A stretch of 64,000 nucleotides of DNA from Actinomycetota bacterium (GTDB taxonomy: Bacteria > Actinomycetota > Coriobacteriia > Anaerosomatales > Anaerosomataceae): the NCBI GenBank assembly GCA_009773565.1, contig WSXY01000007.1, positions 1-64,000 of the forward strand, read 5' to 3'. Shown one piece after another: positions 20,491-24,028 of the stretch. Under the pieces are notes generated by a model that was not told the DNA's origin, did not search any database, and worked only from the letters and a program-made list of their open reading frames with translations. Position 1 is the stretch's first letter; the number at the start of each line of letters is the position of its first letter. Made by a program: the position numbers and the translations under genes.

Positions 20491-21825
20491 ATGTCCCGAC
20501 TGTTCGGTACTGATGGCGTCCGTGGGTTTGCGAACCGGGACCTGACGCCCGAGCTCGCGATGAAGCTTGGCGAGGCAGCCGGGCATTTCCTCGGCGAACG
20601 AGGACGCGGTAGCATCGTCGTCGGCATGGACACCCGGCGCAGCGGAGACATGCTTGAGGCCGCGCTGGTGGCGGGAATCTGCTCGGGTGGCGCGGATGCT
20701 CTTCGGCTCGGAATCGTACCGACACCTGCGGTCGCTTATCTGACTCGGTTGCTCGGAGCCGATGGCGGCGTCGTGATCTCGGCATCGCACAATCCTGCGG
20801 AATACAACGGCATCAAGCTCTTCGATCGTGACGGGTTCAAGTTGCCAGACGAGATCGAGGACGAGATCGAGGAGTTCCTCGTCGCGGAACGTGATTGGTC
20901 GCGTCCGACAGGTGCCGGAGTCGGGCGCTCCAGGATCGTCCCGGACGCTGCTGAGCGATACATCTCCCACGCAGTCGAGAGCGTTCGCGGCGACCTTGTC
21001 GGGCTTACGGTTGCGGTCGACTGTGGTCACGGTGCTTCGGCCAAGACGACCATTAAGGCGCTCAAGGATCTTGGGGCGACCGTTCACGCGATCAACTGCG
21101 ACTACAACGGTATGGACATCAATGAGGAGTGTGGTTCGACCCACCTGGGAGTCATCTCAGAGTTGGTTCGCGCACACGATATCGACTTCGGAATCGCACA
21201 CGATGGTGACGCCGATCGAGTCCTCGCCGTCGATGAGACAGGCGCTGAGGTCGACGGAGATATGCTCATGGCGATCATCGCTGCCCACATGATGGAGCGC
21301 GGGGAGCTTGTTCACGATACGGTCGTGGCGACGGTCATGAGCAACCTGGGCTTTGAGGTCGCAATGCGCGAGCGAGGCATCAACGTCATCAAGACCAAGG
21401 TCGGCGACCGATACGTGCTCGATCAGATGCGAACCTCGGGAGCGATTCTCGGTGGCGAGCAGTCCGGTCACGTGATCATGCTTGAGCACAGCACGACCGG
21501 CGACGGCCTTATCACCGCGCTGCAGTTGGCGGCGATCATTCGTCAGACCGAGACTCCGTTGTCCGAACTTCGACAGATAATGCGTCGCTACCCGCAGGTG
21601 CTGAAGAACGTGCCCGTCAAGGACAAGGGGCTGCTATCCGGAAGCGGTGGGGTTCACGACGCTGTGAAGGCCGCAGAGGCTGAGCTTGGCGATCACGGAC
21701 GCGTGCTCGTGCGTGCTTCGGGTACCGAGTCGATCGTTCGCGTGATGGCCGAGGCGAGCGATGAGGCAACGGCGCAGGCGATCGTTGATCGAATCACTGC
21801 TGTCGTCGTGTCCGAACTGGGGTAG
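20491..21825 (+). CDS. glmM: Phosphoglucosamine mutase
   Basis: This is a 444-residue enzyme that converts glucosamine-6-phosphate to glucosamine-1-phosphate on the way to UDP-GlcNAc. It opens RLFGTDGVRG. The phosphorylated catalytic serine is S99 in ISASHNP, the metal loop is DGDADR near residues 236-241, and the sugar loop GGEQSGHVI and C-terminal phosphate loop RASGTESIVRVM are present. GAAGGAG precedes the ATG. The next gene, glmS, supplies its substrate. Confidence 0.97.
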   Translation: MSRLFGTDGVRGFANRDLTPELAMKLGEAAGHFLGERGRGSIVVGMDTRRSGDMLEAALVAGICSGGADALRLGIVPTPAVAYLTRLLGADGGVVISASHNPAEYNGIKLFDRDGFKLPDEIEDEIEEFLVAERDWSRPTGAGVGRSRIVPDAAERYISHAVESVRGDLVGLTVAVDCGHGASAKTTIKALKDLGATVHAINCDYNGMDINEECGSTHLGVISELVRAHDIDFGIAHDGDADRVLAVDETGAEVDGDMLMAIIAAHMMERGELVHDTVVATVMSNLGFEVAMRERGINVIKTKVGDRYVLDQMRTSGAILGGEQSGHVIMLEHSTTGDGLITALQLAAIIRQTETPLSELRQIMRRYPQVLKNVPVKDKGLLSGSGGVHDAVKAAEAELGDHGRVLVRASGTESIVRVMAEASDEATAQAIVDRITAVVVSELG

Positions 21826-21857: not shown

Positions 21858-21866
21858 TGGTATACT
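21858..21866 (+). promoter_or_regulatory. Extended -10 promoter for glmS
   Basis: TGGTATACT at 21858-21866 is an extended -10 (TGN followed by TATACT). The -35 is weak (TTCCGC at 21836-21841, 19-base spacing). A transcript would start near 21873, about 50 bases upstream of the glmS ribozyme cleavage site, which fits transcription of the ribozyme with glmS. Confidence 0.6.
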
Positions 21867-21924
21867 GCTCCGCGAGACGTGAACCTCATTGCAGGGAAGG
21901 TGATGCCCACGTACGAGACAGCAA

Positions 21925-22090
21925 GCGCCGGGACTGGCAGCGTGCAAGCGCAGCGGGAGGCGATTACCACCGCGCCAGTTGACGAGGTGAGGGTCCATCG
22001 AAACATTCGGCGGATGGCCCTCCGGCCCACCGGGGTCGAAACGATGGAGACAAAGCACCCGGGCAATCGGGAGACAAAGCGACGTCGGAC
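21925..22090 (+). ncRNA. glmS self-cleaving ribozyme (glucosamine-6-phosphate sensor)
   Basis: The core of the glmS ribozyme is plain. GCGCC at 21925-21929 follows the expected A at the cleavage position (A21924|G21925). Stem P1 pairs ACTGGC 21933-21938 with GCCAGT 21974-21979. The conserved TTGACGAGG starts at 21979, ATCGA lies at 21997-22001 and TTCGGCGGATG at 22006-22016. Downstream are CAAAG at 22051-22055, a CCCG/CGGG stem (22058-22061/22068-22071) and CAAAG at 22075-22079. In known cases glucosamine-6-phosphate acts as cofactor for self-cleavage, and the glmS mRNA is then degraded. Two more hairpins follow before glmS (22105-22119 and 22125-22140). The 3' boundary is approximate. Confidence 0.92.
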
Positions 22091-22201
22091 CGGAGCACAT
22101 CATTGCGGGCAGGGCCCGCTTCCTGGGCGTGAATGCGCCCGGACTCTGCGGTATCACATGCCGCACTACCTGACCTGATCCCTCGCGAGAGGAATACCCT
22201 T

Positions 22202-24028
22202 ATGTGTGGAATCGTTGGATATGTAGGACCCCGCCAGGCGAGCGACGTGCTTCTCGGCGGGCTCGCCCGACTCGAATATCGTGGGTACGACTCGGCTGGT
22301 GCGGCGATCATGAGCGAGGACGAACTCGTCGTCGTACGTCGTGTCGGGAAGCTTGTGAACCTGCGAGAGGCCATCGCTGGCAAACCGGTGCCGGGTACGG
22401 TCGGCATCGGTCACACACGCTGGGCCACGCACGGCGCGCCGAACGAGGAGAACGCCCATCCTCACGTTGATTGCTCTGGCAAGATCGCCGTTGTGCATAA
22501 CGGCATCATCGAGAACTATATGGAGCTACGCGAGGAGCTCGCGGCGAACGGGCATGTGTTGCGTTCGGAGACAGATACCGAGACCGTCGCACATCTCGTT
22601 GAAAGCTACTACGAGGGCGATCTGACCGCTGCGGTCATCAAGACCGTGCGACGCCTTACGGGCGCGTATGCGCTTGCAATCGTTCACCTGGAAGACCCGG
22701 GCACGATCGTTGCGGCACGTGTCGACTCGCCGCTCATCATCGGCATCGGTGACGGCGAGAATATCGTCGCAAGCGACATCCCGGCGGTTCTTGAGTTCAC
22801 GCGCGAGGTGCTCGTTCTTGAAGACGGCGACGTGGCCACCGTCACCGCGAATGGCGTGAGCGTGGTCGACGCTGCCGGAAGGCCGGCCGACTCCGAGATG
22901 ATGCACATCGAGTGGGACCTTGCTGCCGCCGAGAAGGGCGGCTACGAGGATTTCATGTTGAAGGAGATCCACGAGCAGCCGCGCGCCATTCGCGAGACCC
23001 TTCGCGGTCGGATGGACGCAACCGGGAAGATGCAGCTGTCCGAGCTTCAGATGACCGAAGCCCAGCTTGCAGCGGTCGAGCGGGTATTCATCGTTGCATG
23101 CGGCACGAGCTACCATGCAGCAGTCGTCGCCAAGTCCCTTATCGAGCAGTGGGCGCGCATACCTGTTGAAGTCGAGGTCTCAAGCGAGTTCCGGTACGGC
23201 AACCCGATCGTCGGTGAAGACACGCTCGTGGTGGCGATCACGCAGTCTGGAGAAACCACGGACACGCTTGCTGCGGTCCGAGAGGCGCGGCGTCGCGGCG
23301 CCAAGGTCTTCGCGATAACGAATGTCGTCGGGAGTCGCGTGACGCGCGAGACAGACGGTGTCATCTACACGCATGCGGGTCCCGAGATCGGTGTGGCGGC
23401 GACGAAGACGTTCACTGCGCAGATCGCTGCACTCACCGTGCTGGCCCTGAAGCTGGCGCAGGCCAATGGCATGCTCGATCAGAAGCGGGTCGAGGCGCTG
23501 TGGGAGGAACTCTCCCATATTCCTGAAATCGTCGAGGCGATTCTCGCCGATGCGAATGATATCGCCGAGTGTGCAGCGGAATACAAGGACGCGAACTCCT
23601 CGCTGTTCCTGGGTCGCGGCATGGGTGTGCCCGTTGCCATGGAAGGCGCGCTCAAGCTGAAGGAGATCAGCTACATCCATGCCGAGGCGTATGCTGCAGG
23701 GGAGATGAAACACGGCCCGATTGCGCTCATCACTTCCGAGGTGCCGGTCGTTGTCGTCGCTACACAGGGGCATACCTATGAGAAGGTCGTGAGCAATATC
23801 CAGGAGGTGCGTGCTCGCGGAGCCCGTGTGATTGCCGTTGCAACGCATGGTGATCAGGACATCCAGCGTCACGCCGAGCATGTGCTCTATATCCCGGCTG
23901 TGAGCGAGGCCCTCTCTGCGATTCCCGCGACGGTGCCGATGCAGCTGTTGTCGTATCACATCGCCAAGCTTCGTGGCTGCAACGTTGATCAGCCGCGCAA
24001 CCTTGCCAAGTCAGTGACGGTCGAGTAG
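22202..24028 (+). CDS. glmS: Glutamine-fructose-6-phosphate aminotransferase (isomerizing)
   Basis: This is a 608-residue enzyme that makes glucosamine-6-phosphate from fructose-6-phosphate and glutamine. ATG 22202 is followed by Cys, the N-terminal nucleophile exposed after Met removal (MCGIVGYVG). The glutaminase domain (about 1-230) has GIGHTRWATHG and VVHNGIIENY; two SIS isomerase domains follow (CGTSYHA, SQSGET-like TQSGETTDT), with the C-terminus NLAKSVTVE. The frame is open upstream to 22133, but that would remove the essential Cys. It is controlled by the upstream ribozyme. Confidence 0.98.
   Translation: MCGIVGYVGPRQASDVLLGGLARLEYRGYDSAGAAIMSEDELVVVRRVGKLVNLREAIAGKPVPGTVGIGHTRWATHGAPNEENAHPHVDCSGKIAVVHNGIIENYMELREELAANGHVLRSETDTETVAHLVESYYEGDLTAAVIKTVRRLTGAYALAIVHLEDPGTIVAARVDSPLIIGIGDGENIVASDIPAVLEFTREVLVLEDGDVATVTANGVSVVDAAGRPADSEMMHIEWDLAAAEKGGYEDFMLKEIHEQPRAIRETLRGRMDATGKMQLSELQMTEAQLAAVERVFIVACGTSYHAAVVAKSLIEQWARIPVEVEVSSEFRYGNPIVGEDTLVVAITQSGETTDTLAAVREARRRGAKVFAITNVVGSRVTRETDGVIYTHAGPEIGVAATKTFTAQIAALTVLALKLAQANGMLDQKRVEALWEELSHIPEIVEAILADANDIAECAAEYKDANSSLFLGRGMGVPVAMEGALKLKEISYIHAEAYAAGEMKHGPIALITSEVPVVVVATQGHTYEKVVSNIQEVRARGARVIAVATHGDQDIQRHAEHVLYIPAVSEALSAIPATVPMQLLSYHIAKLRGCNVDQPRNLAKSVTVE

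Follow-up and report, generated by a model that had tools for sequence, protein, structure and literature searches.

The glmS ribozyme class is best known from Bacillota. Of 463 glmS ribozymes surveyed by McCown and colleagues in 2011, reportedly only two lay outside glmS mRNAs, and the same authors are said to have described variants from Deinococcus-Thermus with extra stems in the catalytic core. A role for RNase J1 in the decay of the glmS mRNA of Bacillus subtilis was reportedly established by Collins and colleagues in 2007. Cleavage by the ribozyme marks the glmS mRNA for degradation (review, PMC11477304).

We analysed a 64,000-nucleotide stretch from an actinobacterial (Coriobacteriia) genome, here called the window, in which the first-pass annotation had placed a glmS ribozyme ahead of glmS. 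This is borne out by a search with the RF00234 covariance model (cmscan), which gives a clear match of 62.8 bits (E 4.3e-12; gathering score 37 bits) covering the full model, 1-167 of 167. It is the single Rfam match in the whole window, in agreement with the earlier statement that glmM is preceded by no such element, and the genome holds only this one copy of RF00234. A second covariance model, trained on the copies of this order with the window sequence among them, scores 129.6 bits at the ribozyme compared to 10.4 bits at the window's next best place. The sequence blocks that had been named all lie where they had been located, namely A21924/G21925 with the GCGCC segment, P1, TTGACGAGG, ATCGA, TTCGGCGGATG and two ACAAAG blocks, and the core of the ribozyme class is present in the window as A/GCGCC, GACGAGG, AUCGA, UCGGCGGAUG and the ACAAAG blocks. 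At the level of sequence, the element is thereby confirmed as a complete glmS ribozyme belonging to this well-known class. The features of the locus are collected in Table 1.

Table 1. Positions of the features discussed, in window coordinates except for the two rows marked L140
Feature	Position	Strand	Remarks
glmM, phosphoglucosamine mutase	20491-21825	+	upstream gene; TIGR01455, 551 bits, above cut-off
Extended -10 promoter, TGGTATACT	21858-21866 (TATACT 21861-21866)	+	start expected near 21873
glmS ribozyme	21913-22097	+	RF00234, full model length, 62.8 bits; covariation over 49 copies
Cleavage site A21924/G21925 and GCGCC segment	21924-21929	+	invariant in 49/49; cleavage position by homology
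P1	21932-21938 with 21974-21980 (span 21932-21980)	+	tip split into P1a and P1b, three-way junction
P1a, GCGU-GCAA-GCGC	21940-21951	+	hairpin on P1 tip
P1b	21953-21973	+	hairpin on P1 tip
Catalytic core	21981-22016	+	GACGAGG 21981-21987, ATCGA 21997-22001, TTCGGCGGATG 22006-22016; invariant or nearly so, 49/49
P2	21989-21994 with 22017-22022	+	100% of cells paired; two-sided changes in 5/6 pairs
P3	22023-22038	+	loop CCGG 22030-22033
P3.1 pseudoknot	22030-22033 (P3 loop) with 22090-22093 (3' tail)	+	two-sided changes in 4/5 pairs; 90.6% of cells paired
P4	22042-22049 with 22080-22087	+	7/8 pairs covary; 91.6% of cells paired
P4.1	22058-22062 with 22067-22071	+	GCAA loop; 5/6 pairs covary
Three hairpins between ribozyme and gene	22105-22119, 22123-22142, 22147-22165 (span 22105-22165)	+	fold z -2.7
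glmS, glutamine--fructose-6-phosphate transaminase	22202-24028	+	controlled gene; TIGR01135, 852 bits
nagB-linked ribozyme (L140)	L140:3012-3161		upstream of nagB
nagB (L140)	L140:3209-4000		downstream of ribozyme

With the RF00234 class as it occurs in Bacillus and Clostridioides, the window copy shares the cleavage-site motif, the core blocks, P1, P2, P3, P3.1, P4 and P4.1, and the position ahead of glmS, but it differs in its high-GC Coriobacteriia host, in a P1 tip formed by two hairpins and in a tandem G.A in P4. The Deinococcus-Thermus variants resemble it in lying outside Bacillota and in being structurally varied; whereas their extra stems are reportedly in the core, that of the window is on the peripheral P1. 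Residues in the core segments at 21981-22016 include those that we assign, by reference to the crystal structures, as the catalytic and ligand residues.

To judge the fold by covariation, we aligned 49 copies, all of them from the order to which the window belongs and the window copy among them. The core (the cleavage-site surroundings and the GACGAGG, AUCGA, UCGGCGG and CAAA blocks) is invariant or nearly so. For the structure composed of P1, P2, P3, P3.1, P4 and P4.1, 95.6% of the cells are paired compared to 83.7% in shuffled alignments, 27 of the 37 pairs are changed on both sides compared to 15.5, and the covariation score is 0.390 compared to 0.167, with two-sided changes in each of the helices P1, P2, P3 and P4. 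None of 500 shuffles reaches the observed covariation values, though this count is not a probability, as the sequences are mutually related. Slid controls, which preserve the relatedness, nevertheless fall far below the true register, with only 28-45% of cells paired. The complementary CGCC and GGCG segments of the core pseudoknots P2.1 and P2.2 are present and both invariant across the 49 copies, so that covariation is silent on this part of the structure. That the match is a chance resemblance, or a functionless pseudo-element, is refuted by the covariation; together with the E-value of the match and the fixed genomic position in 49 genomes, this makes such a reading almost inconceivable.

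The ribozyme lies in the 5' leader of glmS, the ATG of which is 277 nt past G21925 on the same strand, and acpS is the next gene after glmS. A same-strand glmS is found 212-297 nt beyond the cleavage site in 48 of the 49 copies, and the remaining one ends at a contig edge. An extended -10 had been reported upstream of the ribozyme, and one is indeed present, though 67 bases before G21925 rather than the approximately 50 first given; no -35 element was identified for it. Motifs of the TGNTANNNT type occur with fairly steady spacing, 58-97 bases ahead of the cleavage site, in 45 of the 49 copies. Strong hairpins between ribozyme and gene had likewise been described, and folding supports their presence but gives three instead of two. 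We considered these as a conserved attenuator and rejected the idea, given a mean z of only -1.0 over 48 leaders and lengths that vary from 69 to 132 nt; they are probably incidental.

The location of the ribozyme in the glmM-glmS gap, preceded by an extended -10 that is itself conserved, makes self-cleavage of the glmS mRNA triggered by glucosamine-6-phosphate (GlcN6P) by far the likeliest function to be predicted for the element. The promoter in the glmM-glmS gap, if active as expected, would produce a glmS mRNA from approximately 21873 carrying the ribozyme in its leader, and the leader RNA would adopt the standard P1-P2-P3-P4 double-pseudoknot structure. When abundant, GlcN6P, the product of GlmS and the presumed ligand, would bind and act as cofactor, and the RNA would then cut itself between A21924 and G21925. 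The RNA downstream of the cut, with its 5'-hydroxyl, would be degraded, probably via RNase J, a homologue of which is encoded in the genome (TIGR00649, 583 bits), and with the loss of the mRNA the synthesis of GlmS would fall. Drawing on the sequence, the covarying structure, the position, the conservation and the RNase J gene, we assign a probability of roughly 0.93 to a functional, vertically inherited glmS ribozyme that would have its promoter in the gap, the standard fold, cleavage in response to GlcN6P and subsequent mRNA decay.

The window copy has the lowest Rfam score in the order, 62.8 bits compared to 78-111 bits, owing to peripheral parts: an enlarged, bifurcated P1 and a P4 with tandem G.A (22047/22082 and 22048/22081, with Watson-Crick pairs on either side). 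The fold of the P1 three-way junction has an energy of -21.7 kcal/mol, and 4 of 200 shuffles are equally good. A two-hairpin P1 is found in 8 of the 49 copies, which are the window's, those of four sister genomes (L116, L122, L127 and L128; genus g10) and three from family f13 (L014, L015 and L117). The three-way junction at the P1 tip (window 21940-21973) occurs in two families of the order, and a tree of the ribozymes groups the window copy with genera g10 and g4. Since P1 is peripheral, the variant would be expected to carry no loss of activity.

The low score and the P4 mismatches could also indicate a decaying ribozyme, one with its fold still in place but with poor cleavage or a weak response to GlcN6P, in a family from which the ribozyme is being lost. 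Such losses are visible among the relatives. Within the order, seven orthologues of glmS (L146-L152; 73-80% identical), four of them in a genus of the window's own family (g6), are without a ribozyme, and searches before all seven with both Rfam and the order's own model, filters off, found no remnant of one. These genes have short leaders, and in most of them an extended -10 persists close ahead of glmS, a pattern resembling deletion of the leader but not of the promoter. Six further genomes, of other genera in the window's family (L154-L159), carry a distant, ribozyme-less GlmS, about 52% identical, which has a planctomycetal protein as its closest neighbour in the GlmS tree and apparently replaced the original one. 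The absence of the ribozyme from close relatives implies that the lineage can manage without it, and the window copy could thus be weakening. However, the window copy retains every core position that does not vary among the 49, P3.1 pairs perfectly (CCGG/CCGG), and the features that lower the score are peripheral, the bifurcated P1 being common to the four sister genomes and the tandem G.A being enclosed by Watson-Crick pairs. We therefore consider decay improbable and continue to favour a functional ribozyme.

Looking more widely, of the 69 genomes that represent the order, which is probably Anaerosomatales, 49 carry the ribozyme. A sample of the taxonomic class (398 genomes) yields 15 further genomes with a ribozyme over the cut-off, all from a single family (f18), and a sample of the phylum (396 genomes) contains 75, which are the window's own and 74 from outside the class, in about ten families; glmS lies downstream in all ten of the phylum loci read. 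The rarity implied by the first-pass annotation was thus overstated, and the ribozyme is an inherited, widespread feature of the order and no one-off oddity. No papers on glmS ribozymes in Coriobacteriia were found in the literature searched. Among named loci retrieved by GlmS similarity, a ribozyme also stands before glmS in many Bacillota, in one Sumerlaeota record and in one Anaerolineae record, while none is present in the Aquificota, Nitrospirota, Acidobacteriota, Planctomycetota and archaeal loci obtained in this way.

The number of Bacillota relatives of GlmS that carry the ribozyme, and the fact that the ribozyme is best known from there, might suggest that gene and ribozyme were acquired together from Bacillota. 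In a GlmS tree of 135 rows, made by a quick method, the window protein falls inside Coriobacteriia and Bacillota form a separate clade (SH-aLRT 99), which argues that the glmS gene was not imported from them. On this placement we reject an import of the ribozyme together with glmS. The synteny with glmM and the occurrence of the ribozyme in most genomes of the order (49 of 69) point the same way, and we regard joint acquisition as very improbable indeed. A tree of 80 ribozyme copies gives an AU p-value of 0.48 for one actinobacterial clade, and does not decide on an ancient transfer of the leader alone.

A different arrangement is found in family f18. One of its genomes carries a pair of ribozymes, of which the first precedes glmS and the second precedes nagB, which encodes glucosamine-6-phosphate deaminase (TIGR00502, 381 bits) and is followed by an acetyltransferase related to the C-terminal half of GlmU and then by glmM. 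Six more f18 genomes have a ribozyme directly ahead of a closely related nagB (90-94% identical), and acetyltransferase and glmM come after nagB where the locus was read. Altogether there are seven such nagB-linked loci, in seven Coriobacteriia genomes (L140, L135, L137, L139, L141, L142 and L144). In the copies linked to nagB the core blocks are preserved, and a shortened P1 is common to them. The available portions of the literature searched on the glmS ribozyme and nagB report no ribozyme before nagB. The possibility that these genomes are missing GlmS was rejected, as glmS is present in all of them and in 15 of 15 f18 genomes. In four of the six other genomes with a nagB-linked ribozyme, none was found around glmS at the loci read (L281, L283, L286 and L289). 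Near glmS in one f18 genome we observed a ZMP/ZTP riboswitch (RF01750; L281:3693-3772, 52.1 bits against a cut-off of 39).

For a NagB working in the catabolic direction, a switch that silences it just when substrate is plentiful would make little sense; feedback by the product would fit a NagB running in reverse. We offer such a reverse-running, product-inhibited NagB as a hypothesis. Tentatively, and at less than even odds, the ribozyme of Coriobacteriia may be a regulator of long standing with no fixed bond to glmS, which f18 copied or moved to a nagB-acetyltransferase-glmM cluster where NagB would make GlcN6P from fructose-6-phosphate and ammonia and where this product would switch NagB off. 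The window copy would then show this system in its conventional form, linked to glmS, and with a three-way-junction variant of P1 particular to it.

Feedback by GlcN6P through an mRNA that cleaves itself is a predicted, lasting trait of one order of Coriobacteriia and of several other actinobacterial families, and with this spread the textbook account, which assigns the device to Bacillota, is incomplete. The losses in which the promoter was kept, and the replacements of glmS by foreign genes within the same order, are useful for asking when the switch becomes dispensable. The ribozyme on nagB in f18, for its part, makes a testable prediction about the direction in which NagB would run.
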